Assembly (NCBI RefSeq): GCF_016775155.1 | Contig: NZ_JAEUGD010000067.1 | Coordinates: forward strand, 1 to 64,000 | DNA from: Fulvivirga marina | Lineage (GTDB): Bacteria > Bacteroidota > Bacteroidia > Cytophagales > Cyclobacteriaceae | Length of the DNA stretch: 64,000 nt | Direction of reading: 5' to 3' | Shown here: positions 1,946 through 22,400 of the stretch, piece by piece | Numbering within the stretch: the first letter of the stretch is position 1 | Layout of the letters: each line of letters begins with the position of its first letter | Position numbers and translations under genes: made by a program | The notes under the pieces: model-generated | What the model was told of the DNA's origin: nothing | Databases searched by the model: none | The model's input: the letters and a program-made list of their open reading frames with translations, nothing else

Positions 1946-1946
1946 T
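1912..1946 (-). terminator. possible transcription terminator after the outer-membrane protein gene
   Basis: After the TAA stop at 1948-1946 the transcribed strand shows a weak imperfect stem (ATGTA pairing with TGCAT, about 14-nt loop) followed directly by eight T. The stem is short, so this is a weak call. It would partly separate the AT-fold genes from the rest of the operon. Confidence 0.3.
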
Positions 1947-3358
1947 TAAAACTGATATTGGATCTTAAGTACTGCCTGTTTTTGAGTACGATAAATATAC
2001 AGCCCACTGCTAGGGTCATCGGTAAAAGGCATTAACATATCAAAATACAATGTAGTGCGATCATTCCAGTTGTAAGACGTCGACAATATATTAAAAAAAG
2101 TAGTATAAGGTCCATTGTACATGGATGCTAAATTTATAGAAAGATCCTCTTTCATTAATTCTTTGCTCAATGCCACCAGTAACATGTAGTTATTTCTGGG
2201 TTGTCCCTGTATTCTTTCGCTCCAGTCCATGATATGGTAGTTTACAGCTTCCACGCTCACTGTAAAACTATTGTTCATATAATAATCAACTCCGAGGGAT
2301 GCGTCAAGTGCATTTTTCTCTACGATCTGAAAAGAGGCATCATTATATGCTTTCGGCGCCTTAACGGCAACTTCTCCTTTCAGGAGTACATTGCTTATAG
2401 CACGGTTGAATGTAACTCCGGCCATATGGAAACGGTGCTTCTTTCTAGTTATAAGTTCGGGGTTAGCCATACGCAAGGCATATTCATTGTTAATCAGACT
2501 GGCTGCCATAATGCTAACATCACTTTTTCCAAAAGTTTTCTTCCACCTTAGACCATATTCAAAATGGCTTTCATCGTCTGGCTCTGCTTGATATGTAACG
2601 GTACCATTAAAAGGCTCATAATAATACCCTGTACCCTCTTTGGGATGTTCATTAAATTTCGGATCCGGAGTAAAGAATGCACTCCAGTCTCCCGATTGTG
2701 AGTAATGATCAACAGTGACAATAGGCTGACCTATCCTTAGTTCGTCGATACTCAAACTCAGGGGTTCCCGATAATCCAGACGACTCACTTCATTGGTAAC
2801 TATGGCAAAGTCGGACTCTCCCCAAACTAAGGTCTGGATACCCGCCCTAATACTGGTTTTACCAAAACTAGCCTGAACAAAAGCTTCTCTTGTTCTTCCT
2901 CCAAAGGAAAACTCTGCTTCATTTGCATCATCATTGATCCAGTATTCTATATCCCTGGCCCTGTGGTCGTCCTTCAGGAACGTGAATATTTTGGTATCAA
3001 CCTGTAGCGAGAAATGATCGAAAAATGACCTTGAATACTCCAGTCTGTACGAAAGCCTGTTGTTCATTACCCTGTCAGGTTTTGTGACCTTGTAAGCCAT
3101 TTCATATTTCAGCCCAAAACGCATGGGGTCAAATATGTATGAATTAAAAAATGATTCTTTTTCCTCGACAACCAACTCATCGGGAGAACCACCAAAAATC
3201 GGATCTTCACTTACGGAAAACTCAAGTTCTGACGTATCAAAATCTTCATAATCTAAAGTATCACTTTCGACCGGCATCTGTCCATAAACAGGCGAAGCAA
3301 TAATAAGTAAGGTAATGATACCAAATAGTGTATTGACAATACTGAAGGAGCTCTTCAT
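1946..3358 (-). CDS. outer-membrane beta-barrel protein, function unknown
   Basis: This is a 470-residue protein with an N-terminal signal peptide: a hydrophobic stretch at about residues 8-22 and a likely cleavage near residue 26, just before QMP. The remainder has alternating polar and aromatic beta-strand patterns and ends in a Phe-terminated strand (KIQYQF), the usual outer-membrane insertion signal. A segment near the middle (GIQTLVWGESDF followed by LDYREPLS) recalls the DUF1302-type barrel proteins, but I hold that family call only weakly. It sits between the ECH1 gene and the AT-fold genes in the same direction. Its presence in a polyketide cluster suggests a role in export or uptake of the product or in self-protection, but nothing in the sequence proves this. 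I do not recognise a specific homologue. Confidence 0.8.
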   Translation of the reverse strand: MKSSFSIVNTLFGIITLLIIASPVYGQMPVESDTLDYEDFDTSELEFSVSEDPIFGGSPDELVVEEKESFFNSYIFDPMRFGLKYEMAYKVTKPDRVMNNRLSYRLEYSRSFFDHFSLQVDTKIFTFLKDDHRARDIEYWINDDANEAEFSFGGRTREAFVQASFGKTSIRAGIQTLVWGESDFAIVTNEVSRLDYREPLSLSIDELRIGQPIVTVDHYSQSGDWSAFFTPDPKFNEHPKEGTGYYYEPFNGTVTYQAEPDDESHFEYGLRWKKTFGKSDVSIMAASLINNEYALRMANPELITRKKHRFHMAGVTFNRAISNVLLKGEVAVKAPKAYNDASFQIVEKNALDASLGVDYYMNNSFTVSVEAVNYHIMDWSERIQGQPRNNYMLLVALSKELMKEDLSINLASMYNGPYTTFFNILSTSYNWNDRTTLYFDMLMPFTDDPSSGLYIYRTQKQAVLKIQYQF

Positions 3359-3554: not shown

Positions 3555-4346
3555 TCATCCTCCTTCCCAAGGGAATTGCCCGGTTTTCACAAACCTTGCA
3601 ATCTTGTCCAAATTGTTTTGGTCTGAGAACACTTCAATATTAGCTGCAAGTGCATGGGCTTTGGAAGTCTCAGGAAAATCATTGAGCCTGTTCATATAAC
3701 TTTTATAGCGGGCCACACCATCTTTAGATAGTAACCTTAATCGCAATAAATGCTTTCTCAACAGGTTTTCACTTTTATCTTCGTATGCATCTACCAAGCC
3801 CCAGTCGTATGCCTGCTTTGCTGATATAGGCTGGGTCATCAGAGTCATGTAATGTGCTTTTGAAAACCCCATCTTTCGAATCAAAAATGGTAATACGCAA
3901 GCTGGCATCAGGCCGAAAAGCAACTCCGACAGGCTAAATACCGCCCTTTCTTCACAAAGCACAATATCGCAGGCTGCCACAAAACCGATACCTCCGGCGT
4001 TGGCCTTCCCTCTGACGTGGGCAATCGAAACGTACGGACCTGAGGCCAGCTTCATCCACAAGTCGTACATCGGCTCAGGATTCTGTTCCTGATGCTGCCC
4101 CCCATTTTCGAGGCTTTCCTGAATACCTTTGAAGTCTGCCCCAAAGCAAAATACTTCGGGAGAGCCTTCTACCACCACTATCTTGGCGGTGTCTTCGCAC
4201 TGATTAAGTACGTTCGAAAACTCCTCAACCAAGCTGTCATTAATTGCATTATTGGCATCTGGACGGTCTATCTGAATAAAGCAGATATCATCCTCAAACC
4301 TGACTTTGATAGTTTCGTATGTTGCCGTATTGCTTAAGACACCCAT
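3555..4346 (-). CDS. pksH: trans-acting enoyl-CoA hydratase ECH1 of the beta-branching cassette (PksH type)
   Basis: This 263-residue crotonase-fold protein matches, from memory, the PksH family (bacillaene) almost from end to end. Shared blocks include FCFGADF (about residues 66-72, oxyanion hole), HVRGKANAGGIGFV, SELLFGLMPACVLPFL, HYMTLMTQPIS and the C-terminal TGQFPWE. PksH-type ECH1 enzymes dehydrate the HMG-like intermediate made by the PksG-type synthase while it is bound to a carrier protein. The product is then decarboxylated by an ECH2. Here the ECH2 function appears to be inside PKS B and PKS C. The start codon overlaps the end of the HMG-CoA-synthase-like gene by 13 bases, so the two are co-translated. 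Confidence 0.93.
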   Translation of the reverse strand: MGVLSNTATYETIKVRFEDDICFIQIDRPDANNAINDSLVEEFSNVLNQCEDTAKIVVVEGSPEVFCFGADFKGIQESLENGGQHQEQNPEPMYDLWMKLASGPYVSIAHVRGKANAGGIGFVAACDIVLCEERAVFSLSELLFGLMPACVLPFLIRKMGFSKAHYMTLMTQPISAKQAYDWGLVDAYEDKSENLLRKHLLRLRLLSKDGVARYKSYMNRLNDFPETSKAHALAANIEVFSDQNNLDKIARFVKTGQFPWEGG

Positions 4347-5593
4347 TCGTATTCTCTTTTGAATTCCTTGATCCCCTTTAAAAACAGTGTCTCTTTGCCC
4401 ATAGCTTTTCTGGACTGAGGAATAAAACTACTATCCAGAGTAACATTTCGAGTACCAAATTTCACAGCATTACTGCCTACAAGCAGGTTCTCGTATTCTT
4501 CCATAGTCAGTTCATATCTTTTATCAAACTGCTCTTTGATCTTGAACTTTTTCATAGCTTTCTGGCTCTCTTCGCTCACTACTCCACTAAAAAACTCTGA
4601 ACAACATCCTGATCCATAAGAAAAACATCCGATTCTTTGTGGTGCCGTGAAATTACCATTCTCGATAGTACTGGCTAGTGACATCATGGCAGTAGCTCCC
4701 ATAATGTTACCAATACGCTGGCAGTAAACCAGGCCTGGAACTACACGATTCTCAAAGTCTGCTTCAATATCTTTTGGTTTAGCCTTAGCGGCTTTTCGCA
4801 TCAGGTTACGGTGTGCTCCTTTCACCATACCTCCAAAAGGAGTATGAAAGGCCAGATAGCTAAATGTTTTGGCATAATCTGCCTCAGGCACCCTTTTCTG
4901 ATATTCATAAAATGCATTTTCACAACAATCAAGGTATGACAGCAATGAAAGATCAGAGTCTCCTGCCTCTCCATCAGAAGTAGGTCTACAAGTATCCATA
5001 ACCTGATAGCCATAATAGCCATTGGCTCCAATATCTACCTGGAATATATGTGGTGTTTCACTAACCAACATAGCTACAGCTCCGGCACCTCCACTAGGCT
5101 CAGCAAATGACCACTCCATGGTAAGGGCATCTCCACCCTCTTCAATCATGAAGCGTGATACGTCCGTGGCTATTACCAGGGCTTTTGCTCCCGGAGAAGT
5201 TTGAGAAAGAATAAAATTGATTGCCATTTGAAAACCGGCAACTCCGGAATAACAAGCATTTTTCAGCTCAAATAAACGACAGTTACGGTTCAACCCTAAT
5301 ATTTCGTGAAAGTAAGTACTCATTGATTTACCAAAATCAAAAGACGATTCGGTACATGAAATTACCAACTCTATACGATCCTTCTCTTCCGGGCTAAGGG
5401 CATCAATAAGTGGTTTGGCTGCATTCACACCAAAAGTAACCGGATCCTCATAAGGTAAGGCTACTGTTTTCTCCTTCATCAGGAGGTTTTTAAACCTGGA
5501 AGTATCCAGGTTACGATGTTCGGCAAGCTTCTCTACATTCAAATAGGTAGTGCCTGCAAAAACATTCATTGCTTCAATTCCTGCTACACGCAT
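4334..5593 (-). CDS. pksG: HMG-CoA-synthase-like enzyme of the beta-branching cassette (PksG type)
   Basis: This 419-residue protein resembles PksG/CurD-type HMG-CoA synthases along its whole length. The catalytic residues are Glu82 (SCTES), Cys114 (NACYSG) and His250 (FHTPFGG), at the positions I recall for CurD. The enzyme adds an acetyl carbanion, held on a donor carrier protein, to the beta-keto group of the growing chain, creating the carbon branch. It overlaps the ECH1 gene by 13 bases. The likely clients are the tandem carrier proteins of modules 4 and 6. The donor carrier protein and the decarboxylating ketosynthase that normally accompany it (AcpK and PksF types) are not in this window. 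The start at 5593 is preceded by an A-rich stretch and no Shine-Dalgarno sequence. Confidence 0.95.
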   Translation of the reverse strand: MRVAGIEAMNVFAGTTYLNVEKLAEHRNLDTSRFKNLLMKEKTVALPYEDPVTFGVNAAKPLIDALSPEEKDRIELVISCTESSFDFGKSMSTYFHEILGLNRNCRLFELKNACYSGVAGFQMAINFILSQTSPGAKALVIATDVSRFMIEEGGDALTMEWSFAEPSGGAGAVAMLVSETPHIFQVDIGANGYYGYQVMDTCRPTSDGEAGDSDLSLLSYLDCCENAFYEYQKRVPEADYAKTFSYLAFHTPFGGMVKGAHRNLMRKAAKAKPKDIEADFENRVVPGLVYCQRIGNIMGATAMMSLASTIENGNFTAPQRIGCFSYGSGCCSEFFSGVVSEESQKAMKKFKIKEQFDKRYELTMEEYENLLVGSNAVKFGTRNVTLDSSFIPQSRKAMGKETLFLKGIKEFKREYEWVS

Positions 5594-5795: not shown

Positions 5796-7799
5796 CTACT
5801 CGGCGTAAGCGTAGACTCGGTGGACTGCTGTCTGCGAAAACTCTTCCAGTTCTTTCTGGAATTCAGTCTCGGCTTCGGCTATTGCTTTTTTCTCATCACC
5901 GTTAGGTTTTACCTTAGCCTGACTGGTCAGTCTGTTGAGTACATCGACCAAAACATCGATATCCTCTTTAGTATTCTCTACACCTAAGCTCACTCGCACA
6001 ACGCCAGGAAGCTGAGTTTTTGGAGACACCGTAAGCACAACACGCTGAACTTGCTCCAATACCGGGTTGATGTCAAGCAAGTGCTTGATCAGCAAGTGAG
6101 AGCAGTGGCAACCATACCGAACTCCTATGCCTCCCTTCTGGAACATTTCTTCAGCCAGCTTGTTGTGCAAGATGTCCTTAGTTTCGAATACAATAACACC
6201 AATTTTTTTATCAAATTGGCTTGAATTTGGATCTTTTATACCAAATATTTTGAGGTGGGGTACTTTAGACAAGCCTTCCAGCGCAAGTCTGGTCAGTGCC
6301 TGCTCTTCTTCATGTACCACATCCATACCAATACGACGTAAAAGCACAAGTGCCTTGCCTAGTGCTGCTACACCACCAATATTTTCTTCACCTGAAGACT
6401 GGATCTGCTTTAACTCATCAGCCTTATGGTTAAGCAACCCTTTTCTTGCGATCAGTACTCCTGTACCGAAGGGCGCGTATACCTTATGTGCTGAGAAAGC
6501 CAAAAAGTCGATCTCATCTTTCTCCATTTCCACCTTTTTGTGTGCTACTACCTGGGCTCCATCGACAAGAAGCTTTGCTCCATATTTATGTACTATAGGG
6601 CTTATTTTCTCGATGTCGTTACAAGTTCCCAAAACGTTGGAAGCACCACTTAAAGCAACTATCTTTATTCGCTTCTTTCCATGTTTATGGTCCTGGTTGT
6701 ATTCTCTCAAGCTATTTTCCAGCTCAACAAGGTTTACAAAACCTTCGGAATCAACAGGAAGCCTTACGAGTGACTTCTTAGAAGCCATACGCCATGGAAG
6801 GTCATTAGATGAGTGCTCAAGCAATGAGATAAGTACTGCCGGCTCCGTATCCTTGTCAGTTGAACGCCCCAGACTCTCAGATACGAGGTTAATTGACTCA
6901 GTTGTATTTTTGGTAAATATGATATCATATTTTTCAAGGGGAGCTCCTAGTAATTCACTACAAACTGCCTTCACTTCATTGACCACGTCTTGCTTTCTTC
7001 GCTCAGGTAGCCTTAGCGACTGGCGGAAAGTATTCCATATAGGCTGGAAAGTAGGCGTACTAGCGCTATTATCCAGGTTAACAAATGGTTTTTCACCCTC
7101 CAGTGTTGGTACTATAAAACCGCGACCTATCAGGGTTTTCCTCAGATGCTCCATTAGCTCAACGCCGGAGTACTGTTCCATATCATCTTTGTAAAGCAAC
7201 TCAGTGATACCCAAATCATTGTTTGGAAGTTTCTTAAAGATATCTTTTCCATATCGCTTTAACAACAGCAATGCCTTACCGAATGCGATCACATTAACAA
7301 TAGGAGGAGTACCTGCCTCAAATTTATCAGGACCAGTGTTCCAGATGATCCAGCCAGCGGCGACCAGTCTCGCAGTACCTCCTCCACACTCTGTCGGAGA
7401 ACCTTTAGGCAATGCCTTTTTCTCCACTGCAATGGCAGTGATACCTAATGGCAGGCCTACTTCACGACTGGTAATACTTTGATAACTTCCCGGCTTGAGC
7501 AGAGAGATCAGCTCGCTGGTTCTTTTAGGTGAGCTAAAAATAACGATATACTTGTCTTTGTTTAGCCCCATGTATTCCAATACCACGCCTCTCGCGTGCT
7601 CATATAATTGCGAAGAAACCAAAGAGTTGTGTCCACTTCCTCTATGCACGTTAGCATAAGTCTCCAAAGCTGCATACACACTACGTTCAAGCTCTGTAAA
7701 TGCTCTTTCCGCTCCATTATTTTTCTGTATGCCATTTTCTGTATCCTGAGTCTGGGCGACATCAGACGATGCATACTCTGTTTGCTTAGTTGTTTTCAT
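5796..7799 (-). CDS. class-V PLP enzyme (cysteine desulfurase-like) with an extra truncated N-terminal copy of the fold
   Basis: The protein has 667 residues, well above the roughly 400 usual for the family. Residues from about 235 form a class-V aminotransferase/cysteine desulfurase domain: LDNSAST at 242-248, SAHK with the PLP lysine Lys439, and a cysteine-rich loop YGCHCSH with Cys564 and Cys566, where desulfurases of related type carry the persulfide cysteine. This domain seems to lack the HRGS..S segment after its first helix. Residues 35-190 look like pieces of a second class-V domain: a start with VHRGSGHNS near 51-59, then a C-terminal-type part with KFEAGTPP near 159-166, with the PLP-binding middle missing. 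The protein probably handles cysteine sulfur or a similar beta-elimination. It lies 78 bp after a methyltransferase gene. An amino-transfer or carbon-sulfur lyase role on another substrate is possible. Confidence 0.8.
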   Translation of the reverse strand: MKTTKQTEYASSDVAQTQDTENGIQKNNGAERAFTELERSVYAALETYANVHRGSGHNSLVSSQLYEHARGVVLEYMGLNKDKYIVIFSSPKRTSELISLLKPGSYQSITSREVGLPLGITAIAVEKKALPKGSPTECGGGTARLVAAGWIIWNTGPDKFEAGTPPIVNVIAFGKALLLLKRYGKDIFKKLPNNDLGITELLYKDDMEQYSGVELMEHLRKTLIGRGFIVPTLEGEKPFVNLDNSASTPTFQPIWNTFRQSLRLPERRKQDVVNEVKAVCSELLGAPLEKYDIIFTKNTTESINLVSESLGRSTDKDTEPAVLISLLEHSSNDLPWRMASKKSLVRLPVDSEGFVNLVELENSLREYNQDHKHGKKRIKIVALSGASNVLGTCNDIEKISPIVHKYGAKLLVDGAQVVAHKKVEMEKDEIDFLAFSAHKVYAPFGTGVLIARKGLLNHKADELKQIQSSGEENIGGVAALGKALVLLRRIGMDVVHEEEQALTRLALEGLSKVPHLKIFGIKDPNSSQFDKKIGVIVFETKDILHNKLAEEMFQKGGIGVRYGCHCSHLLIKHLLDINPVLEQVQRVVLTVSPKTQLPGVVRVSLGVENTKEDIDVLVDVLNRLTSQAKVKPNGDEKKAIAEAETEFQKELEEFSQTAVHRVYAYAE

Positions 7800-7877
7800 A
7801 TGAATCTCTTTCGTTTTAATTATTAGTTGATTTTGGTCTGTTCTATACTTAATTCAACCTCCGGCCCCGGAGGCTTT

Positions 7878-8531
7878 TCAATCTTTTTTACCAACAATGA
7901 AATACTGCTTCCCTGCCTTATTCAAACATTCACTTTCTACAAGGCTGAAGCCGGCATTTACTATTGCGTCTTCAACTTCATTTACATTATATGTTTTAAG
8001 GTTGGGAATCAACCCGATTTTACTGACAAGTGATAATGCTATACCTACAAATGTTTTCCTTCCCAGACAAGGCGTAACGGAAATGAACAGCCCTCCAGGC
8101 TTCAACAATGAATGTATTCTGTTCAACACCTTAGGCATATCTTCCATCAAATGTAGCATATAAACTGCCAGTATGGTATCGAATGTACCAGGCTTATAAC
8201 AGTCATCAAACAGCGTTCCGTGGGTATATTTTACATTTTTCAAGTTAAGCTCATTGGCCTTGTTTTGGGCAATTCTAACCATTTCAGAAGATATATCCAT
8301 ACCATGAACGGTATGCACATCGCGAGCGATTTCATTGGCTAGTATTCCAGTAGCACAACCAAAATCTAATACATCATCCTTTTTTTGGAGATACTTTTTT
8401 GTGCTGTCAAGGATCTTCATGCGGCCCGCTTTGTCCTTCATTTCCTCCTTGTCATACCCGTTTGCACTCTTGTCCCAAAATTTTTCCGATTTGTCCATTG
8501 TCTCTTTTGATGTATAGGGTTGGTTTTTCAT
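7878..8531 (-). CDS. SAM-dependent methyltransferase (class I)
   Basis: This 217-residue protein has the class I Rossmann methyltransferase motifs: VLDFGCATG at residues 54-62 (SAM binding), HGMDIS at about 76-81 (acidic residue that holds the ribose), and a post-motif region with LKPGG before the C-terminal strand. It resembles small UbiE/Methyltransf_11-type enzymes. It sits between the two PLP-dependent sulfur enzymes, 24 bp after the cysteine desulfurase gene, which suggests methylation of a polyketide or of a sulfur group made by its neighbours. The target atom (O, S, N or C) cannot be read from the sequence. Confidence 0.9.
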   Translation of the reverse strand: MKNQPYTSKETMDKSEKFWDKSANGYDKEEMKDKAGRMKILDSTKKYLQKKDDVLDFGCATGILANEIARDVHTVHGMDISSEMVRIAQNKANELNLKNVKYTHGTLFDDCYKPGTFDTILAVYMLHLMEDMPKVLNRIHSLLKPGGLFISVTPCLGRKTFVGIALSLVSKIGLIPNLKTYNVNEVEDAIVNAGFSLVESECLNKAGKQYFIVGKKD

Positions 8532-8555
8532 GATCGCGACCTGAGCTTAATTTAA

Positions 8556-9728
8556 TTAATTTTTATTTTTTTCTTCCTCAATATACTGTTTAATCACCTT
8601 TAGTGTGTACTTAATGTGCTTTGATTTCGTAGTTGATCCAAAGCTTATCCTGATAGATTCCTGTGCAGCTTCATCTGTCAGCCCTATAGCTTTTAGTACA
8701 TGCGAGGGTTTGTTTGATGATGTGCTACACGCTGAACCAGCAGAAACTGCAATACCATGGTAATCAAGCATTTTCATCATTTCTCCACTACCTATACCTG
8801 GAAAAGTAAGATTAATGGTGTTTGTCAGACAGTGCTCCTCGGGGGAGTTAATGATGATATCGTTTTTTATTCCTTTCAACTCTTTAATAAACGTGTGCTT
8901 AAGAGACTCATTTTGCCTGGAAAATGTTACAAGCTTATTTACATGTTTACAAGCTTCTCCAAAACCCGCTATATTATGAATAGACTCAGTGCCTGCCCTC
9001 ATTCCTTCTTCCTGGTGTCCACCATGAATGTAAGGCTCTAAGGGACAACTAATTCTGGCATACCAGGCACCAATACCTTTAGGGCCGTAAAGTTTATGCG
9101 CTGAAAATGTTGCGTAGTCAACATCCAGATCTTTTACATCGATGGGGATTTTACCCAATGCCTGAACACAGTCAGAAAAGACCAATGCTCCTTTGGCTCT
9201 AGCCATCGCAGCTATCTTTTTCACATCCTGGATCGTGCCTATTTCGTTATTAGCAAGCATGCAACAAACCAGAGAGGTCTTATCATCGATCATAGCCTCC
9301 ATTTCTTCAAGCACTACACGGCCTGATTTGTCTACCGGGCAATATTGAACATCAATACCCTGAGTTTTCATATACTCCAGGGTATTCATTACTGAGGGAT
9401 GCTCAATAGGTGTGGAAATAACCTTGTTTTTCTCCGGGGAGAAATGATTACTCACTGTTTTCAGTATAGCATTATTAGATTCGGTAGCACAGCTGGCAAA
9501 ATAAACCTCGTGCGAATGGGCTCCAATAGCCGCCGCTACCTGCTCACGGGCTTTTTCAATGATCTGTGCCGACATTTTCCCCTTGGCATACCCCGATGAA
9601 GGGTTGCCCCAATAAGATTTCAACACCCGATTCATTACAGATCTTACAGGAGCTGCAATATGGGTTGTTGCGTTGTGATCGAAATAAACATTTCGTTTAC
9701 TCAATAACTGTTTTATCATAGCAATCAT
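8556..9728 (-). CDS. cysteine desulfurase (NifS/IscS type)
   Basis: This 390-residue group I cysteine desulfurase has YFDHNATT at residues 15-22, the PLP-stacking His110 (IEHPSV), SAHK with the PLP lysine Lys212, and the flexible loop SAGSACSTSS with the persulfide Cys334. It releases sulfur from cysteine and passes it on as persulfide. No IscU, ferredoxin or other iron-sulfur assembly gene is beside it, so it looks like a cluster-specific sulfur donor and not the housekeeping copy. It is packed 24 bp after the C_GCAxxG_C_C protein gene and 24 bp before the methyltransferase gene. Two possible start codons (residues 1 and 4) are equally plausible. Its presence beside a polyketide line suggests sulfur incorporation. 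Confidence 0.93.
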   Translation of the reverse strand: MIAMIKQLLSKRNVYFDHNATTHIAAPVRSVMNRVLKSYWGNPSSGYAKGKMSAQIIEKAREQVAAAIGAHSHEVYFASCATESNNAILKTVSNHFSPEKNKVISTPIEHPSVMNTLEYMKTQGIDVQYCPVDKSGRVVLEEMEAMIDDKTSLVCCMLANNEIGTIQDVKKIAAMARAKGALVFSDCVQALGKIPIDVKDLDVDYATFSAHKLYGPKGIGAWYARISCPLEPYIHGGHQEEGMRAGTESIHNIAGFGEACKHVNKLVTFSRQNESLKHTFIKELKGIKNDIIINSPEEHCLTNTINLTFPGIGSGEMMKMLDYHGIAVSAGSACSTSSNKPSHVLKAIGLTDEAAQESIRISFGSTTKSKHIKYTLKVIKQYIEEEKNKN

Positions 9729-9752
9729 ACTTTAATAAAAAACTAATATGAA

Positions 9753-10574
9753 TTATAGTGCGGCAAGTGCATCGATGATCTTCTTGCAACCACCATTCTT
9801 AATATAATCGGAGTGATCATCTATATCTTTAAATTCTTTGCCAGTGATCTTGCTGCACATTACTTCGGAGTCGGTCTGAACATAAAACGCCCTCAGCATT
9901 TTCTTTTGCTCCTGAGCGTCAAATGACGAAGCAGATTTACCAGGATTTTTCTTGAGCCAGTCAACCATTTTATACCAGATGGCAGCACTTAGCGCTCCAC
10001 ATTCCTTTCCACTGAGTCCAAGTCCCCCTGCATATCCGGCCACCATAAGCATCTCTTCTTCGGTCCCCCCCATTTTTCTAACTACTTCAGATGCACAGCT
10101 CACTGATCCTGGGCAGAACTTAACCGTATCATCAGACAACCCTTCATCTGCCGACTTGATAGCTTCAGGCGCCCATTTCCCGGCAAGTTTCATACAAGTA
10201 AAGGCTTTGCCTGTAAACAATACTTTGAGTGGAGCCAGCTTACCAGACAGATCCATATCAGTAATATCACGACAACTTATGGTATTGGTCCTTTTGGTAA
10301 AGGACTGCATCAAATGTTGGGTGGCAGTTATGGCCATGGCTACAGCAGTGCCCGTATCTTCATTTCTACGGTATGATTCTGCCCCGGCAGCCAGTACAGC
10401 ACCTCCAATAAGCCCGCATTGATATCCTCTGTTCAACAGACCTCCTGCAAAAGGTGATGCAGCTACCTCAGCCACTTCATTAGGCACACCATACTCTTCG
10501 TTCAGTAACGAACAGAACGCCGTACCGCAAGTTCCTCTGGATAATACTTTGAGACCATCTTTATAAGCTTTCAT
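9753..10574 (-). CDS. protein with two C_GCAxxG_C_C domains, function unknown
   Basis: I place the start at 10574 (273 residues) because the reading frame upstream of this ATG, open to 10673, has no family-like sequence. Two related halves are visible. Half one has Cys16, Cys21, Cys53 (YQCGLIGGA), Cys101 and Cys127. Half two has Cys154, Cys160, Cys192 (KECGALSAA), Cys240 and Cys263. The regular spacing and the CG(A/L) core match the C_GCAxxG_C_C family, small cysteine-rich proteins thought to bind a redox cofactor or metal; their reaction is not known to me. No signal peptide or membrane segment is present. It follows PKS D and precedes the cysteine desulfurase by 24 bp, so it may carry sulfur or electrons for the tailoring step. 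Confidence 0.8.
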   Translation of the reverse strand: MKAYKDGLKVLSRGTCGTAFCSLLNEEYGVPNEVAEVAASPFAGGLLNRGYQCGLIGGAVLAAGAESYRRNEDTGTAVAMAITATQHLMQSFTKRTNTISCRDITDMDLSGKLAPLKVLFTGKAFTCMKLAGKWAPEAIKSADEGLSDDTVKFCPGSVSCASEVVRKMGGTEEEMLMVAGYAGGLGLSGKECGALSAAIWYKMVDWLKKNPGKSASSFDAQEQKKMLRAFYVQTDSEVMCSKITGKEFKDIDDHSDYIKNGGCKKIIDALAAL

Positions 10575-10765
10575 AGTTGAAATTTTTAGTGTGTATTTAA
10601 TTAAGTATAGACCCACGACCCCCACTTCTACTTCGCGAAAGGACTGAATCGTGTTTTTGAAAGAATATATCATACGACAGTGCGGGCACTATTATGGGCC
10701 ATGCCTACACTGCCATAAATTTTAATTTATGTTATCATTTTTAAGTATTTTATCATATTCTCCGT
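10575..10765. other. 191-bp intergenic region after PKS D
   Basis: This spacer lies between the end of PKS D and the preferred start of the C_GCAxxG_C_C protein gene. The reading frame of that gene is open for 33 more codons into it, but they look non-coding. I see no clear terminator or promoter. Confidence 0.4.
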
Positions 10766-13490
10766 TTATATAACATCAGCCTCCATATACTGGTCACCCT
10801 GCACAGCGCTAACCTTGCCAAATGCCCTTACATAGAAGTTTTTAATACTCGCTAAAACGTCTCCTCCTTCATTGATGATTTTGATATTGAACTTTTTAAT
10901 ATCAGCCTGAGATCTACCCTCAGCCTCCACCTTTTCTACATAAGCATAACAGGTATGTGACAACGGACGGAATATTTCTATTTCGTCAATTGCGAACGGC
11001 ACATGTGGAACTGCTGACTCCATCTGACCGATCAATCCTGCTACAGTTTGTAAGGCTCCATCAACAATACAAGGGTGTAATATAAAACGATCAAAATCAG
11101 CTTTCAAATGATCTGCCAATTTTAGTTTAGACAATGCAAAAGATTCATTGACATAAAACTCATGCATAGTCCTGAATGCCAGGCCATAATCAAAGCCTAC
11201 CTGCTTAAATATATCATAATAATCAGAGCCATTCTGAGGGGCTGGACATTGAGCCTTCAGCGCCTGCACCGAAATATTCTCAGTATGTAACGAAGGACTC
11301 ATACTATTTTGGAAGAACAACTGACCTTCCGAATGCATTATTTTTTCATTCTCATCATCAAGAGAAGTAATTCTATATTCAATACCACTTCCATTAGGCT
11401 TTAACGATGTTTGAACAAACTGAGAGCCTGTTTTGAAACTTAACGGATGCGCCCAAACGATATCCCTGATCTTGCTTACTTTTTGCTCTCCTGCCAGGTT
11501 ACCGCATATGTTTGCAATCTCTATAAACCCTGAACCGGGGAAGAGTTTTTCTCCATTAACCTGGTGGTCTACAGCATAGAAGGCGCTATCCAACAGCATG
11601 GAGCTAAAGCTAATTTCCCTCAAAGTAGATGAGTTATATGAAACCAAAGGATGCAACTGAGCATTCGCAGGCTCTGGAGCTGCTTTCTTCTCCATTTGAT
11701 CCGTCACCCAGTATCTTTCTTTAGCAAACGGATAGGTTGGCACCGAAATTTTGCCTGGCTTATCCAGAGCATACAACGCTTCCCAGTCTACTTCAACGCC
11801 AGTTACCCACAATTGAGCCAGTTGCCCCAGCTCTCCTGTTTTGAAAAGGTTTTGAAGCTCTTCAGTTCTGTCAGGAGCTCTTCTCCTTCCCTGACGAGGA
11901 TCCGTTTTTCCCTGATAGATATACTCTGAGTCCTTCCGCTGCTTCCAGTCTTTTAATCGATCAAGGAGCTCTGTTCTGTCTGATGCTACAATAGCCAGTC
12001 GCTCAGGCATTGCCTCACGACCAATTTGCAAGGTAAACGACAGATCGGCCAAGCTTACATGTTTTTCATTTCCTGCAAAGGTGAGAAGTCTGTCAACATA
12101 TTCATTGAGTCTTTCTTCATTCTTTGCAGATAATGCAAACAGGTGAGGTCCTTTATCTTGATGTTTCTCCATGGATTTCGGTTTTTTATATTCCTCCAAT
12201 ATCAGACATGCATTCACCCCTCCAGCACCAAACGAATTGATGAGCGCTCTTCGCGGATAGCCGGGAGCAGGATTCCACGGAGTAAGTTGATGCTGTAGGT
12301 AGAAAGGCGACTCTTTGAACTCGATATTCGGATTCACCTCATCGGAATTAATGGTCGGTACTAGCTGTTGATGCTTCATTTGCAAGAGCACTTTGGCTAC
12401 ACCTGCTATGCCAGCAGCTGACTCAGGATGGCCTATATTGGCCTTAACAGATCCGACAGGAGCAAATTGTTTTTTCTTCGTCTGCTTTTGGAATGCGTTG
12501 GTCATGGCTACGATCTCAAGGCTGTCACCCAGCTGAGTTCCAGTGCCATGCCCTTCTATATAACTAATGGTTTCAGGATTAACATTAGCTTTGCGAAGCG
12601 TGTGCTCGATCAAATTAGCCTGAGCATTCGGATTAGGAGCAGAATATCCATTAGACCTTCCACTATGGTCATAGGCACTTCCCGTTACTACTGCGTAGAT
12701 CTGATCATTGTCTGCAATGGCTTTGCTAAGTGGCTTCAGCAACACCGATCCAACTCCTTCGCCTGGCACAAAACCATCATCACCTGCACCATAGCTAAAG
12801 CACTTTCCAGTACGGGAGATCATACGATTTTTACAGAATGAGTGATACTTTGATGGGTGCAAGTATAAATTCACACCTCCTGCTACGGCCACCTGACACT
12901 CTTGTTTCCTTAGACTCTCGCATGCCAGATGTATGGCCACAGAAGATGATGAACATGCAGTATCTACGGGCATGCTTGGTCCATTGAAGTCAAACAAATA
13001 GGATACGCGGTTCGCAATAGACCAAGGGTGCGCACTTGGCGTAGTATTTCCCTTGCTCCATTCTTCTGATGCTAATAGGTTATAAGTATTGGTAGTAACC
13101 CCCACAAAAACCCCCACATTGGCGCTTTTGGCTTTAGGGTGTCGCTTTTTAAGGCTGTCTTTGGTATACCCGGCATCTTCTATGGATGACCAGACTGATT
13201 GTAGGAATAGCCTTTCCTGAGGATCTATTATTTTGGCTTCATCCGGAGTAATATTAAAAAACTCAGGATCGAATTTATCTACATCATTAATAAAACCTCC
13301 CCATTTACAGTAAATTTTACCCTCCTTAGCCTTTTCAGGATCTTCATGATAATAAGCTTCACTGTCCCACCTGGTAGCAGGCACCACCTCAGTCAGGTCT
13401 TTACCATTCTTAAGGTTTTCCCAGTATTTATTTAGGTCTTCCGATTGCGGATAGCTTCCATGCACTCCAATAATGGCAATCGGTTCAGTA
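10766..13490 (-). other. module 11: KS-DH without KR or ACP (PKS D C terminus)
   Basis: KS 12190-13490 (Cys at 12953-12955; EGHGTGT and NIGH present) and DH 10790-11670 with DHQVNG and HPCIVD intact. The protein then ends. A separate KR-ACP protein or a following synthase would have to complete the module. Confidence 0.85.
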
Positions 13491-16400
13491 TCTTCATATT
13501 TATCTGTAGATGATACAGTCTCTCTGATCTCTACCTGACGATGCTCTACTACCTGTACTTTTTCTTCGTATCTGATGGTCTCCTGAACATCCTCTTCATC
13601 TACCTCTTGCTCTAAATTCAGGAAGCTGATCAGGGCCTCTCTTTCCTCCGCCACCATATAGGCTGCCAGTTCTTCTATCGTTGAATATTCGTAGAACAAA
13701 GTTTTAGGCAGAGCCCCAAGATCTCTCTCCAGGTTAGCATTGAGTTTGCTGATAACAATAGAATCGATACCGAAAGTTTCAAAACGCTCCACTGGATCAA
13801 TGCGCTCAGGATCAAGCTTGATTTCTTCACCAATCAGAGCCTTCAGATAACCTTCTGTCAGCTCGAGAAGCATTTGTGGATCTATGGTTCTGGCCTGGGC
13901 AGGCTTACTCTTCTCAACCTCTACGGTTCCCTGTCCCATATATGGCTTGATCCTCGAGGATAAACCATAAAGCGGAACACCCTGCGACAGATCAGAGATC
14001 AAGAACTCTTCGAAGTATTGGACACCCTGATTGACAGGTAAAGGACTAAGACCTGCCTGTTTTTCAATCATAGCAACCTCCTCGTCAGAGATGTGCATTC
14101 CACCTTCTTCCCAGTAAGTCCAGTTGATGGATAAGGTTTTACCTTTGCGCTTTTGCTCCCTTACCAGGGTTTCTCTGTTTTCTGCAAATGAATCCAGGAA
14201 GTGGTTACCATAGGCATAATCGCACTGTCCAACATTACCCATTACTCCAGCAATTGAAGAGAATAGGACAAATATGTCCAGATCTTCATCTCTTGTAGCA
14301 AGATCAAGGTTAATGGTTCCGTAAATTTTAGGTGCCAACACTTTATCCATCTCTTCTCTTGATTTCCTGAGAATAAATGAATCTATATTAACCCCTGCAC
14401 TATGGATCACTCCATTAACTTGTGAAAAGCGCGCTTTTGCAGATTTCACTACAGACTCCATATCTTCAAGACTGGAAGCATCTGCCTGTAGATAAAGTAT
14501 TTCTGTACCATACGCCTTGAGTCGATCAAGTTTTTTCTCTTGCGCTGCTTTAAGCTCAGAGCGTCCGAAAACAACCAGATTACACTGGTAATTTTTAACC
14601 AGATACTCGCTGAAAACGAGACCTAATCCTCCTAACCCACCGGATACAATATAAACGCCATTCTGCTTAAGCGGCAACCTGTCCTGGCTGCGTTCCACAC
14701 GAACAAACTGCGTCAATTCTCTGACGAATCTGGTATAGGCTTGTTTTTCGTCTCTGTATTTGTAGCGAATTTCATTTTTCTTCCAGTTTCCATCGTTAAA
14801 TTCATCAGAAACGATTCGAACTTTTTCTTCTGTTGTCACCCTGCCTTCATCACCTTGCTGAACCTCCACAATTTTACCATGGTAGTGAGGGTTCTCCAAA
14901 GCTAACGTTTTGAAAAAGCCTCCCAGTGCAGCATTCAGAGCCGCAGAGATGCCTGCATTATTGAAGACAGATAAAATCTTAAGAGGTACCTGATGCTTTT
15001 GTGCCATCAGTGCCTTACACAAATTAAATAAGGCAAAAACGCCAGAATTGAGCTGTTTTGTTATGTCATCTGCTTTATCAGAATTCTCAAGCGCCAAAGC
15101 TTGGTGAACAATTCGGTAAGGAAGTTGGCTTCTCGAAGCAAGAGTTTCTACCAATTGGCCAAAGTGTGCTTCATTCTGCGGATCAAGGGTAAATACCGTT
15201 GACTCTATTTCCTGATAGTTGTTTCCTGGCTTTACTAAAATCAGAGGGCTAGACTGTTTCTGTCCATTTTTCATGGCTTGGTATAGCTCATCCGTAGTAT
15301 CCAATACCAAAACAGAGCCACTCTCGGGAGTTTCTTCTTCTGTCGGACTCAGATTAAGCTCCACCCATTGAGGTTGATAGTGGAGCTTCCTCTTTTTCTC
15401 TTCTTCAGGCTGGTCATCCGTGTTGATCTCCTGTACGATGAATTGGTCAGTAGACAGGGAAAATGGCGGGGTCTTGATCCAATATCGCTCTTTGGCAAAC
15501 GGATACGTAGGAAGTGAAACCCGCTTGGGCTGAGTATGCTGATAAAGCAAAGACCAATCTATTTCTCCACCTGAAATCCAAAGCTTAGCCAGTTTTTCTA
15601 GGTTTCTGGCCTCCATAATCACTTTTAGGTAGGCCCTGCCTTCTTCTCCTTCCAACAAAGCGCTCGCATCAGATGACGCTTTTTTAATATTGCCATGATA
15701 AATTCCTTCCAGCTCACTTGCTGATTTTTTGGAATCTTTCTCCTGCTGTCCGGCTAGCCATCGTCCTAGTTTTTCTTCAAGCTCCTGAGTACTGCTGGCT
15801 ACTATTACCAGACGTTCATTCATTGGAGTTCTTCCTACTTGGGAGGTATAAACAATATCGGTCAGCGACGTGCCTTTATTATTACCCAGGAAGGTCAGCA
15901 TTTTTTCAGCATATTTCAAAAGTCCATTTTGATCCTTCGATGAAAGAACAAAGGCCTGAGGTAAGCTTTGGGGCGTCTCTCTATCCTGTAGACTTAAGTC
16001 ATTGTACTCTTCTATAATGAGGTGAGTATTAGAACCTCCTGCTCCAAAAGAGCTGATTCCGGCTCTTCTAGGATAGCCATCATTGCTGGTCCAATCAGTC
16101 AACTCCCGCTGCACGTAGAATGGCGAATCACTGAAATTGATGTTCGGATTCAATGTTTCTGCATGCAATGAGGGTACTAGTTGTTGATGTTTTAACTGGA
16201 GCAACACTTTGGTCACTGCTGCAATTCCTGCAGCTGATTCCAAGTGTCCAATATTTGACTTCACGGAACCTATCGGGCAAAATTGTTTTTTCTCGTTAGT
16301 ATCTCCGAAAGCTTTGTTCAACCCTGTAATTTCAATAGGGTCACCCAAAGCCGTACCTGTACCGTGAGTCTCAATGTAGCTTAAGGTAGAAGGATCAATT

Positions 16401-19400
16401 TTAGCCTTTTTCAGCGACTCGATGATCAAATCACCCTGCGCGTTAGGGTTAGGTACAGAGTAACCGTTGGTTTTTCCGCCATGATTGATCACGCTAGACT
16501 TAATAACTCCGTAGATATGATCACCATCTTCTATGGCTTTGTCCAGAGATTTAAGTAGTACGGCACCTACACCTTCACCGGCTACATACCCATCGCCACC
16601 ATCACCAAAACTTCTGCATCGTCCATCGCTGGCAGCAAAATTGCCTTGACTAAGGATCAGATACTTGTGAGGGTGTATCGACACATTGACCCCACCGGCA
16701 ATAGCAGCCTCTATATCACCTTTCCTTATTTCTTCGCAGGCCTGGTGTATGGCTGTAAGAGACGAAGAACACATGGTATCCATGGCAATGCTGGGTCCAT
16801 GTAAGTCTAAGAAATAGGACACCCTATTCGCTATTGAAGCATAGGACGAACCCGGCACAACAGCATTACCTGCCAACATGGCCTCTGCTCCGTAAAGCTG
16901 GTATTGACCATACATCACGCCAACGTAAACTCCAACTCGGCCCATAGCCGAAATGCCTTCTTTACTGTATCCGGCATCTTCAATAGTCTGCCAGGCTGCC
17001 TCTATAAAAAGACGTTCCTGCGGATCTATCAACTCTGCCTCTTTAGGAGATATGTTAAAAAACAAAGGATCGAATTTATCTACATCGGAAATAAATCCTC
17101 CCCATTTGCTATAGCTTTTTCCTGCCTGGTTACGCTTAGGATCAAAAAAGCGTTTGGTATCCCAACGATCCTCTGGAATTTCAGTAATACAGTCTTTTCC
17201 TTTTTTAAGATTTTCCCAAAACTCTTCTATGTTTTCCGACAGAGGGTACTTACCACTCAAACCAACAATGGCAACTTCCCTTCTCTGAGCTTGGGTTTCA
17301 TTGCTATAGAAACGGTTACCTGAACGGAGGGTGGATATCACCGGTTGCTTCTTAGCTGTAGCCTGAGGTGTTGTCTCCGGAGCAGGTGCTGGTGTGTTAC
17401 CTCCGACCTTCTCCAAAATGATCTGCGGATAGGATTTGGCAAGGAAACCGGCCAGGCTTTTTATAGTCTGATATTCGAAAAATAGTGTTTTAGAAAGAGA
17501 ACCGAAGGTTTCTTCAAGCATACTGGTCAATTTCATGGCCAGTATGGAATCAATACCGTAATTCTCCAAAGGTGCTTTAGGATCAAGTTCGTTGGCCGGA
17601 AGTTTAAGAACTCCGGCAAATTCCTTGCGCAAATAAGCTACTGTTTTGTCCAGTAGACTGTTTGCATCTGCCTGGGCAACCGGTGCAGACTCGGCACTGA
17701 TGGCACTTGGTTCTGGTGTGGCCTCTACATGACTGGCTTGATCAGGATGGAGGATGTTACGCATCTTCTTCAGATCACCTTCCATCACCAACATTTGGCC
17801 ACACGACGATGCCAGGCTACCATAAAATGCCCTTATACCTGACGAAGCCTGCAAAGGCTGAATGCCAGTAGCCTGTTCCAGCATTTCTATATTTTTCTGG
17901 TCAATACTCAAATGACCGTCTTTCCACAACGGCCAGTTGATAGAAAGTGTTTGCCCATGTCTTGCTTTTTGATCTGCCAGCTGGTTACGGTAAAAAGCAA
18001 ACTGATCCATAAATGCGTTAGCCGCAGCATAGTCTGCCTGCCCCACATTACCCATAGCGCCGGATAATGAGGAGAAAAGCACCATAAAATCAAGCTCAAT
18101 GTCTTTGCTGGCCTCGTCAAGGTTAAACGTACCAGTCACTTTAGGCGCCAGTACCTTGTTAACCTCCTCTTTGGTTTTCTTCAGGATAAAGCTATCTGAA
18201 ATCATTCCTGCACTATGGATGATTCCATTGAGCTGCTTGTTTTTCTTTTTGATTTCAGCTATAAGTGCCTTCACTTGATCCAGGTTATTGATATCAAGTT
18301 GCTTATATATCACCTGACTGGCATTTGCAGACAATTCAGTTAATACGGCCTGTTTTTCTTTAGTTAACTCAGAACGCCCGGTGAGTATTACCTTAGCTCC
18401 CTGGGTGTGCTGCAAAATCTCTCCGGCAAACAAAATTCCCAGAGCCCCCAAACCTCCGGTGATTAAATATACACCGTTGTCTTTAAGTACTGTTTTAGGG
18501 TCTGTTTCGCTTCCCAATATTTCATCCCATTGTAAAACATGAGCAGCCTCTGCTTCATATTTAATGAAAGACTCTTCCGGCCTTTGTTGCGCTTTTTGCA
18601 ACTGGCCCGCTAGAGCTTCTTCATGGATACCAGACTCAGTAAGTATGACCTGACCTATGAGTTTAGGATTTTCCTGAGTGGCAGTTTTGAGCAATCCTGA
18701 CAGTCCGGCAAAAAGTGCCTGTTCCTTATGGTTAGGCACAACAACCTGAACCAGTACTCTTCCTTCAGGTTTATCCTTAATAATCTTTTGTATATACTCG
18801 AAGCAAGCCACGACATACTCGTTGTAGCGTTCTGCTATATTTCCTTTAGGGGCAACGAGCTGCAAACAATTGCTGTTATCCATCCTGGATTTAAGCTCTG
18901 TTGCTTTTACACCTGATAGCTCACAAAGTATGATATGTTTTTGCTCAAATTTGGGTTCTACCGTTTCCGCTACCCTTTCAAATGGTGCCCATGTAGGCTT
19001 AGCCATTAGTGTACCTATACCTTTGCTCTGGACATCAACGCTAAGCTGTCTGGAAGACAGTCCTCTCATTTGAACACATACATTACCTTCCTGATCACAC
19101 AGATCAATATCCAGTCTTGTTATGGCATCTGTAGGCTCGCTTCCTTTAGCGTAACGAACCCATGCAAACATATTTTCGGTTGCCGGGGAAATGATGCGAA
19201 TGGTATCTAAAGCAAAAGGGACAGAGGGCTGTGAAGGAAGATCTTTAAGGTCTTCTAACAAGCCAAAAGCCGATTGCAACGCACTATCCATCAGGCTTGG
19301 ATGCAGCATGTAATCATGTTGATCTGACGCCACAGCTTTGGGCAACTTTAACTCTGCCAGCAACTGTCTTTCTCCCTGATAGAGCGCTTTGATCCCTTGG

Positions 19401-22400
19401 TATGCAGGTCCATAGATTAGACCCATAGAATTAAATAATGGATACAGGCTCTCGGCATCTATTTTGCCTCTACCCATTTGCCCTTTGAGCTCTACTGTAT
19501 CCAGTTTTTGTACGGTTTTATGACTGGTAAAACTGGCTACTCCCTGGCAATGGACAACATCCTGATCGCTGTCCCAGCTGGAAATTTCATAGTTAATCTG
19601 GTCGCCCCCTTTTACGAAAAGGGCTATATCCACCTGCTTATGCTGTTCTACCACCAATGGCTGAGCCCAGGCTGTATTGTGCAGTTCCAACATTCCATAA
19701 CCCGGCTCTACACCGGCAGCTCTTTCCACTGCTACACGAGCCATTTCAAGGTAGGCCACTGCAGGCAAAACCTTGGCCGAATGTTCATCGCTGATTTTTA
19801 CCTGATGGTCTGACAGGAAGAATTCTGTACCACTGAAAGTAGAGCTATAGCTCTGTCTGCTAAAATCTGACGTGTTGCTATGTAGCAAAGGGTGAAGTGC
19901 TGAAGTAGTCTTTCCGTTGATGGCACCCTGCCCGTTGATTTTTGTATCAATCCAATACCTGTCTTTGGCAAAAGGATATGCCGGAAGACTGATACGTTTA
20001 GGTTTATTTTCTCCATAGAACTTGGCCCAGTCCAGGTTCAGACCTTTAGCCCACAGATCCAGAAGTTTGGATAGCTTCCTTCGTGAAATCCACTTGTCTA
20101 CAGTTTGCTCAAAATCACTGTCTGCGTTGAACAAAGACAGGGTATCACTATCCTGATCCGTTCGTCCCTGATAAGCATCTTCTATATCCTCTTCACCGTC
20201 AAGATAAGCCTGAAGTTTTTCGATTAGTTCATCAACAGTACTCACCATAAAGCCTAGACGAACATCCATGGCTTCTCTTCCCACCTGTAGCGTATAGGCC
20301 ATTGAAGCAAGGTCAATCGCTCCTACTTCCTCTTCCTGCTCTTTGGTTCTGGCATTCTGAAGGAAATCATAAAGATCGAGCGCTTTTTGTCTAAGCTGTT
20401 CAGGTGTTCTCGCTGATAAAGGAATGATCACTTTTAAATCCGGGCTGGTAAGTGCAACAGCCTGATTTTCTTCAGCCGGAGCAACATATTCCTCAATAAT
20501 AATATGAGCATTGGCACCACCAGCACCAAAAGATGACAGGCCTGCTAAACGAGGTACACTAACACCATCAATTACAGGTTGCTCCCAAGGTTTCAGTGTT
20601 TGATTGACAATAAACGGTGTCTTATCAAAATCTATATTAGGATTTAATTTCTTTGAATGCAAAGAAGGAACTATGCGCTTATGCTTAAGCTGTAGCAATA
20701 CCTTAGTCAGGCCAGCAATGCCTGCAGCAGATTCGCAATGCCCTATATTGGATTTGGCCGAGCCTAACTGACAAAATCCTACATCCGATGTTTTGCGCTG
20801 GAACGCCTGGCTTAATGCTGCGATCTCAATAGGGTCTCCCAGTTTGGTACCTGTACCGTGAGCTTCAATATAGCTGATATGACGAGGGTCTGTATTGGTA
20901 GTTTCCAGTACATGACTGATGAGGTTAGCCTGCGCCTGTGGGTTAGGTACACTATATCCATTGGTCTTACCCCCATGGTTTAAGGCACTGCCTTTAATCA
21001 CACCATAGATGTGATCTCCATCACGAACAGCTTCTGACAGTCTTTTCAAGACCACTATACCCACACCTTCACCAGGGATATAGCCTTCACCTCCTTCTCC
21101 AAAGCTCTGGCAATGACCATCGCTGGAAATGTACTGTCCCGCACTGATCACCAGGTATTTATTAGGGTGTATACTTACGTTAACACCACCGGCAATACCC
21201 AGGCTGGTTCTTCCCTCTTTCAAATCCTGACAAGCCAGGTGGATAGCAGTTAATGACGAGGAGCACATAGAGTCAACCGTCATACTTGGGCCGTGTAGAT
21301 TCAATACATAAGATACTCTGTTGGCGATACTGGCATAGCTACCTGGAACACCCATTCTTTTTCCACTCTTACTCGCTTCAATACCGAAGAGCTGGTATTC
21401 GCTATACATGACGCCAGCATAAACGCCAACCTGTCCTGCCATTCCAAGATTGTGGGGTATCTGAAGACTGGCTTTGGTATACCCCGCATCTTCCATAGCC
21501 ATCCAGGCATGTTGCAAAAACAGCCTTTCCTGAGGATCAAGTATTTCTGCTTCAAGAGGTGATATGTTGAAAAACAAAGGATCAAACTCGTCAACGCCCT
21601 CGATAAAACCACCCCATTTGCTATAGTGATGGCCTCCTTTGCTTCGGTCCTCGCTGTAATATTCGCGCCAGTCCCACCGGTCCTTAGGTACTTCTATGAT
21701 ACAGTCCTTTCCATCGCGCAAGTTATTCCAGTATGCCTCAATGTTGGCAGATTCTGGATAACGACCGCTCAAACCGATAATGGCAATCGGATCGGTATCC
21801 ACTTTTCGTGCAGTATCCGCACCTACCTCAATATGGCGCTGGCGTCTAATCGATCTGGACTGTAATGGTTTAGCCTGAGTTTTAACAGGACTTTCTTTGG
21901 GTTTCTCAACCACTTTTGCTTCACTACTTTTCGTTGAAATAAAAAGTGAAGCCAGCTTGGCCGAATGTGATCTTATAAAGTAATCTGTAAGTTCACGTAT
22001 AGTCTGATATTCAAAAAAGAGTGTTTTGGGCAGTGAACCAAAAGTTTTTTCCAGTTGATTGGTCAGGTTCATGGCCAAAATAGAGTCGATCCCATATTTC
22101 TCCAAAGGAGCATGTGGATCAATTTTATGTGCAGGGAGCTTAAACAACTCCGAAAGCTGCTTTTTGATGTAATCCTGGGTTTTCTCTTCCAGACTTCCTG
22201 CATCCATTTCAACAACAGGCTCCTGCTCTTCGGTATCCGCATGGCTGGCAGGCGATGATTCTATGATCTTTTCGGCAAAAAGTGCCTGGTGCAACTGCTG
22301 CAGATCACCCTCCATCACGAGCAATTGTCCTTGAGAGAGTTCCAGGCTTCTATAGAATGTGCTCAGGCCTGTCTCTGTACGCATAGGACTCATGCCCGTG

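Follow-up and report, generated by a model that had tools for sequence, protein, structure and literature searches.

Introduction

Among the closest described relatives of the system analysed here are the trans-acyltransferase (trans-AT) polyketide synthases (PKSs) of leinamycin, guangnanmycin and weishanmycin. Their SH domains are described in PMC8479088 as thiocysteine lyases, which leave a hydropersulfide (-SSH), and in guangnanmycin the -SSH is capped by the hydropersulfide methyltransferase GnmP. The same account ascribes the thiocysteine to CGL of primary metabolism, which leaves room for a dedicated source. Three further DUF-SH PKS families beyond leinamycin have been listed among 109 biosynthetic gene clusters (BGCs) (Meng et al. 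2021, PMC8479088), and the modules of non-leinamycin DUF-SH PKSs have, in the available part of PMC7618002, one acyl carrier protein (ACP) and no thioesterase (TE). LnmJ had earlier been noted to contain a tyrosine phenol-lyase (TPL)-like domain, and Beta_elim_lyase domains had been noted in further PKS and nonribosomal peptide synthetase clusters (PMC3870968). Thiotetronate Tu 3010, which is also made by a PKS, requires a cysteine desulfurase gene (PMC5518548). Here we compare with these systems a row of four sulfur-type genes in Fulvivirga marina, located in a stretch of 64,000 nucleotides (the window, C64:1-64000) at the start of contig NZ_JAEUGD010000067.1 (C64), which extends to 598 kb in a genome of 6.78 Mb. 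Our reading, held with moderate confidence, is that these genes serve a DUF-SH trans-AT PKS as an accessory module for sulfur supply and finishing.

A four-gene row beside a DUF-SH assembly line

The four genes belong to a single operon-like row on the minus strand, flanked by PKS open reading frames (ORFs) at 10766-64000 on one side and by the 3-hydroxy-3-methylglutaryl-CoA synthase (HMGS) and enoyl-CoA hydratase (ECH) genes at 3555-5593 on the other. They encode a class V pyridoxal phosphate (PLP) protein (5796-7799, 667 aa; PF00266, 262.5 bits), a class I S-adenosylmethionine (SAM)-dependent methyltransferase (7878-8531, 217 aa; PF13847, 77.8 bits), a NifS/IscS-like (group I) cysteine desulfurase (8556-9728, 390 aa; PF00266, 260.1 bits) and a C_GCAxxG_C_C didomain protein (9753-10574, 273 aa; PF09719 in two stretches, 74.9 bits against a gathering score of 27). 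From the class V side upward the genes are separated by 78, 24 and 24 bases, stop codons being counted within the genes. ORFs and Pfam matches agree with the original prediction, which had placed the four genes packed between the synthases and the beta-branching genes. Its description of them as a sulfur-handling group of a trans-AT PKS cluster looks right. The PKS tiles scanned with Pfam show no AT domain; two stand-alone ATs lie downstream.

The original prediction had seen no DUF-SH didomain in the synthases and had called a separate route to thiol, thioether or S-methyl groups possible. The former is true inside the window and does not hold for the cluster, as a DUF-SH didomain is encoded at C64:93024-95708, 29 kb past the window end. 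It forms, together with an ACP, the N-terminus of the PKS C64:85458-95978, in which the ACP is followed by PF09924 (65.2 bits), PF01212 Beta_elim_lyase (100.8 bits) and then ketosynthase (KS), dehydratase (DH), ketoreductase (KR), ACP, KS and DH domains. PF09924 is the family formerly named DUF2156. Among solved sequences the SH part is closest to 9cen ('Polyketide Synthase Protein', E 2.8e-62), with tyrosine phenol-lyases ranking behind it, and K659, D616, R619 and R793 are invariant in the five DUF-SH sequences aligned; by their roles in TPL we take these to be the PLP lysine and the TPL-like Asp and Arg residues. Among plasmids, 80 records match the DUF-SH and one covers at least 80% of it, a Streptomyces xanthii PKS with 36% identity over 91% (37% for DUF and SH together), which is encoded next to members of the LnmK and HMG-CoA synthase families; most of the other records listed are tyrosine phenol-lyases or tryptophanases that match the SH part only. 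The domain matches, the 9cen match, the S. xanthii PKS and the invariant residues identify the assembly line as a DUF-SH line, and a line lacking the didomain was rejected. A wholly separate route to thiol is therefore not needed; what stands of that proposal is a possible additional sulfur step, with which a sister cluster lacking the set (see below) is consistent. In a Streptomyces sp. NBC_01361 plasmid (L076) a DUF match without SH match was found at 15001-15993 in a cluster otherwise similar to that of S. xanthii (LnmK, HMGS), where SH may possibly have been lost or have diverged.

The line shares DUF-SH chemistry and HMGS-type beta-branching with the leinamycin, guangnanmycin and weishanmycin systems. 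In the leinamycin family the terminal module has the order KS-ACP-ACP-DUF-SH-TE, whereas the didomain here is internal, with one ACP and no TE in its ORF, and the KS-DH-KR-ACP-KS-DH part is followed in line order by two ORFs, one for a class III aminotransferase and one with KS, ACP and TE. The single ACP and the absence of a TE from the module are shared with the non-leinamycin DUF-SH PKSs (as given in the available part of PMC7618002), and the assembly line may already be a member of those families. Unlike them, it is linked to a set of two desulfurase-like proteins, a C_GCAxxG_C_C protein and a methyltransferase. The PKS ORF at 10766-24574 (minus strand, 4602 aa; Pfam tiles) ends in KS-DH with no ACP and the DUF-SH ORF begins with an ACP, and from this domain order the former probably continues on the latter as a split KS-DH / ACP-DUF-SH module. 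Three PKS ORFs contain ECH domains and tandem ACPs, and the cluster appears to reach about C64:96673.

The four proteins

The NifS-like protein scores 388 bits against TIGR03402 (cut-off 530.75), and is thus NifS-like and not the equivalog. K212 and C334, the latter in the loop SGSACS, are invariant in the six sequences aligned (alignment A4, 6 of the 11 available), and the window protein is 83-84% identical to the aligned Aquimarina members. The PLP lysine and the SGSACS cysteine loop, which we take to be the motif of group I cysteine desulfurases, are both present.

The class V protein scores 261.9 bits against TIGR01979 (SufS; cut-off 475.1) and, with its two-part layout, falls outside SufS. 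Its N half lacks the PLP core and has the hairpin/FEAGTP segment, and its C half has the PLP lysine and the loop GCHC and lacks that segment. In a comparison with the 415 aa SufS-like protein encoded elsewhere in the genome, residues 33-101 align with 40-110 (weakly, E 0.002), residues 106-185 with 228-307 (hairpin and FEAGTP), and the C half with 93-415, being 19 residues short at the hairpin. The sequence suggests the fusion of a class V pair into a single chain, the complementary halves of which would share one active site. The PLP lysine and the cysteine-rich loop GCHC are invariant in all 11 sequences aligned, including the window and a relative from a metagenome-assembled genome (MAG); this alignment (A1) was made without L091, which is flagged for one TAA, probably the terminal stop, and without L085, which is the same gene as L002. 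A Foldseek search with the model of the protein (pLDDT 63.7, moderate confidence) gave SufS structures as top matches, in agreement with the sequence.

The genome has further desulfurase-like genes, namely a NifS-like gene at C64:549821-550969, with the loop GGSACS at the equivalent place, a SufS-like gene at C63:600981-602024, which follows an ORF read as SufD, and, on C38, a third relative of the class V type. The desulfurase copies in the cluster are therefore extra ones.

For the methyltransferase (alignment A3, 8 of 11 sequences) several Pfam methyltransferase models are above cut-off, none of the NCBIfam families shown (25 of 69) is matched above its cut-off, and a PDB sequence search returned 15 methyltransferases or their kin, none linked to sulfur by title.

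The C_GCAxxG_C_C protein scores 43.5 bits against TIGR01909, under the cut-off of 47.4, and its AlphaFold model has a mean pLDDT of 48. It is 89-91% identical to the Aquimarina members aligned (A2, 9 of 13 available sequences). The mechanical ORF start is at 10673, upstream of 10574; the latter, the start given by the original prediction, was retained, as the Aquimarina homologues have stops upstream of it and the genes of Fulvivirga kasyanovii and Aquimarina muelleri start equivalently. Two weak matches were also observed, both below cut-off, of this protein to the NCBIfam family DVU_1555 C-GCAxxG-C-C protein (35 bits) and of the methyltransferase to DVU_1556 methyltransferase (42.1 bits). 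Going by these numbered names, proteins of the two kinds may be neighbours elsewhere too.

Distribution of the set

A scan of contigs for class V relatives, which started from short peptides of a single sequence and was not exhaustive, gave full-length relatives in 3 of 67 loci, from F. kasyanovii (87% identity), A. muelleri (74%) and a Bacteroidota MAG (53%), and partial matches at 19-30% in the remaining 64. DUF-SH is present in the genomes of F. kasyanovii and A. muelleri, which belong to different orders (Cytophagales and Flavobacteriales), and was not found in that of the MAG. In Aquimarina, 9 of 66 genomes contain DUF-SH; precisely these nine also contain the class V protein and the C_GCAxxG_C_C protein, and the methyltransferase, NifS-like and HMGS genes adjoin in all nine. 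The order NifS, methyltransferase, class V, HMGS, with the C_GCAxxG_C_C gene before NifS, is kept in F. kasyanovii and in the nine Aquimarina carriers, which is beyond chance. In the phylum samples DUF-SH and the class V protein were each found in 1 of 395 genomes, and in a further sample the class V protein was found in 1 of 196, each time in F. marina itself only. At the family level, 2 of 397 genomes sampled contain DUF-SH, those of A. muelleri and another flavobacterium (G1000); for these class V and DUF-SH samples the best few candidates per genome were scored. Taken together, 11 genomes (F. marina, F. kasyanovii and nine Aquimarina) have both DUF-SH and the full set, so the set accompanies DUF-SH in 11 of the 12 Bacteroidota genomes found with the didomain. 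In four of the eleven (F. marina, G593, G647 and G648) the two are on one contig, 83-87 kb apart.

Single members of the set occur elsewhere. The class V relative of the MAG (locus L004) is without the other three genes in the 22 kb read and precedes an ORF that reads as aldo-keto-reductase-like, with no PKS noticed there. The C_GCAxxG_C_C protein has matches in 8 of the 395 phylum-sample genomes, which are full-length only in F. marina itself, G501 (52%) and G551 (48%), the other five being partial at 26-29%. The remaining three members were not seen beside the relative of G501 in the 20 kb read, nor beside that of G551 in the 5.5 kb read. On plasmids the C_GCAxxG_C_C protein had no match, and none of the 388 records matching the class V protein covers 80% of it, so that no full-length relative was seen there. 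The original prediction named the conservation of the four genes in genomes without any PKS as the finding that would speak against it. This was not encountered in the samples, where L004, G501 and G551 hold single members; of the phylum samples this can be said for the class V and C_GCAxxG_C_C proteins, the two that were searched for, and not for the NifS-like protein or the methyltransferase. Two of the four genes thus occur singly elsewhere, and no further case of the full set came up in the samples searched.

The cluster of G1000 is a collinear relative of the F. marina cluster over the 140 kb read. Identities are 61% for the antiterminator-like ORF, 55% for the DUF-SH PKS, 44% for the DUF1302-like protein, 50% for the aminotransferase and also for the KS-ACP-TE ORF, 78% for HMGS and 71% for ECH, and RND-like and GMC-like proteins, PKSs and ATs are present as well. 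The last PKS ends at 974909 and HMGS starts at 974990. That the set is required beside every DUF-SH PKS was accordingly rejected. As this DUF-SH cluster is without the four genes, the set looks accessory and seems to do something extra.

Proposed role and alternatives

The proposed accessory sulfur module starts from the residues that are kept in the sequences: the PLP lysine and the key Asp and Arg in the SH part, the group I cysteine loop in the NifS-like protein, and a group II-like lysine and cysteine loop in the class V protein. By homology to GnmT, LnmJ and WsmR, DUF would load the chain with a sulfur donor of the cysteine type, which SH would cleave to leave -SSH or -SH. The NifS-like and class V desulfurases would raise sulfane sulfur from cysteine, and the C_GCAxxG_C_C protein would carry or guard it, possibly passing it to cysteine as thiocysteine. 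The methyltransferase could then cap the nascent thiol or hydropersulfide as S-methyl, as GnmP does in guangnanmycin; like GnmP it is a SAM-dependent methyltransferase by its domains above cut-off. We infer every one of these transfers, supply and capping included, from the gene content and the residues that were observed.

It is tempting to go further and to speculate that the set is a cluster-borne supply of thiocysteine (cysteine persulfide). The C_GCAxxG_C_C protein would be charged by the two desulfurases, of which the SufS-like one would be a split, pseudo-dimeric protein, and would in turn persulfidate free cysteine for DUF-SH; a hydropersulfide methyltransferase would seal the product. 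This version is put forward only tentatively, as a minority possibility. A cluster with the desulfurase set and a sister without it form a natural pair to test the origin of the thiocysteine sulfur. The analysis also places DUF-SH chemistry in Bacteroidota, and gives a lead to the function of a C_GCAxxG_C_C protein.

Several observations weigh against the accessory sulfur module. In 7 of the 11 genomes DUF-SH and the set are on different draft contigs, so that one cluster can only be presumed in these seven drafts, and the 11 co-occurrences may reflect shared descent of one cluster, that is, linkage and not 11 independent trials. None of the ORFs of at least 90 aa in the 140 kb of G1000, the part of that genome searched, has any of the four proteins as best match among the proteins of the F. 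marina cluster, and in the 42 kb of the S. xanthii locus neither the (incomplete) annotation nor a tblastn search at 1e-10 shows such genes. Finally, relatives of the C_GCAxxG_C_C protein occur outside PKS clusters, one of them, in G501, near KatG-like and Fur-like ORFs (names read from sequence), and a redox role is thus possible.

Of the alternatives, the one that survives best is a second sulfur step. DUF-SH would then install one sulfur from a host-derived donor, and the four genes would be responsible for a further sulfur at another position of the growing or completed chain, for instance in a disulfide, dithiolane, thioacid or thioether. An added step would fit the sister cluster, which has DUF-SH without the set, and the presence of two desulfurase-like proteins and not one. 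We nevertheless regard it as unlikely. The published model assigns the installation of -SSH to the SH domain alone (PMC8479088). Moreover, no thiouridylase-like or ThiS/JAMM-like partner is present among the ORFs scanned with Pfam, a scan that covered the cluster up to the contig start apart from C64:76243-76971 and 77132-79762 and the N-terminal 232 residues of 79875-83696. The comparison with thiotetronate Tu 3010 is relevant here, since there too a NifS-like desulfurase serves a PKS product (stuJ/stuS), but from a separate locus and with a thiouridylase-like partner, and no DUF-SH is mentioned in the available part of PMC5518548. For F. marina the search for a thiouridylase-like partner concerns the neighbouring ORFs scanned and not the rest of the genome.

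Protection or redox control, with the desulfurases and the C_GCAxxG_C_C protein managing persulfide or oxidative stress from a reactive product, or feeding Fe-S clusters, and donating no sulfur to the product, is somewhat less probable still. It would agree with the description of PF09719 as putative redox-active and with the position of the G501 relative, but SufS-like and NifS-like copies are already present elsewhere in the genome, and the set accompanies a biosynthetic cluster in two orders. Tailoring unrelated to sulfur, by an O- or C-methyltransferase and by class V proteins with other PLP chemistry, seems improbable to us; the methyltransferase subfamily is not assignable with NCBIfam and the two-part layout of the class V protein is unusual, while the desulfurase cysteine loops are kept in both class V proteins. 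That the four genes are carried along without contributing to the pathway, as their absence from the G1000 cluster might suggest, is very improbable in view of the gene order and the high identities of the C_GCAxxG_C_C and NifS-like proteins kept across orders.

Possible relation to cuniculene and novelty

The structure and the BGC of cuniculene from Aquimarina were reportedly described by Helfrich et al. in 2019. A cuniculene trans-AT BGC is given for A. muelleri, Aq78, Aq349 and EL33 in PMC9323603, and the BGC of Aquimarina also appears in PMC9860996. In A. muelleri, 15 of 17 KS matches are on contigs C42, C54, C26 and C70, of which C42 has the four-gene set and C26 the DUF-SH, while C54 and C70 are placed solely on the strength of their top KS identities (81 and 87%); the other two are one match at 45% on C3 and a weak one on C11. 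As A. muelleri is said to carry the cuniculene BGC and has most KS matches on four contigs, two of which contain parts of the cluster, the F. marina cluster may be the cuniculene BGC, although the evidence is mixed. Against such a link, the only close MIBiG homologues given for F. kasyanovii in the available part of PMC12565237 are the flexirubin and fulvivirgamide clusters. A 103.4 kb trans-AT PKS of that species (BGC3), which is probably the same cluster as that of F. marina, is listed there among 14 clusters without characterised MIBiG counterparts (PMC12565237).

No published account of the four-gene set was found in the open literature, supplements excluded, on trans-AT or leinamycin systems with desulfurase or Bacteroidetes. 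The suggestion that the route may be undescribed is hence sustained for the dedicated set and not for the sulfur chemistry at the core, which is of the known DUF-SH kind. The four-gene set is real and conserved, and it is the part that appears new.

Other features of the cluster

The beta-branching cassette consists of an HMG-CoA synthase-like gene (4334-5593, minus strand; PF08540, 68.5 bits) and an ECH gene (3555-4346, minus strand; NF005498, 416.7 bits, above the cut-off of 250). Between the ECH gene and an AT gene lies a DUF1302-like protein (1946-3358), the G1000 relative of which (44%) is instead directly behind the DUF-SH PKS. The stand-alone protein of 409 aa at 24640-25869 has no Pfam match at 0.01; judged by eye, with its HxxxD-like motif (SHVAADG), it looks like a condensation/BAHD-type acyltransferase. 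The N-terminus of ORF C64:51083-72853, in the part beyond the window, contains AprA_N, WH_AprA and AprA MT2-like domains. These matches make the ORF a likely loader and point to a methylated starter similar to that of apratoxin. Its positional counterpart in G1000, also a PKS ORF, has a different N-terminal sequence. At the cluster start an ORF at C64:96095-96673 reads as a NusG/LoaP-like antiterminator, and relatives of it are found beside DUF-SH in all 11 loci tested (L073, L074, L077-L084 and G1000).

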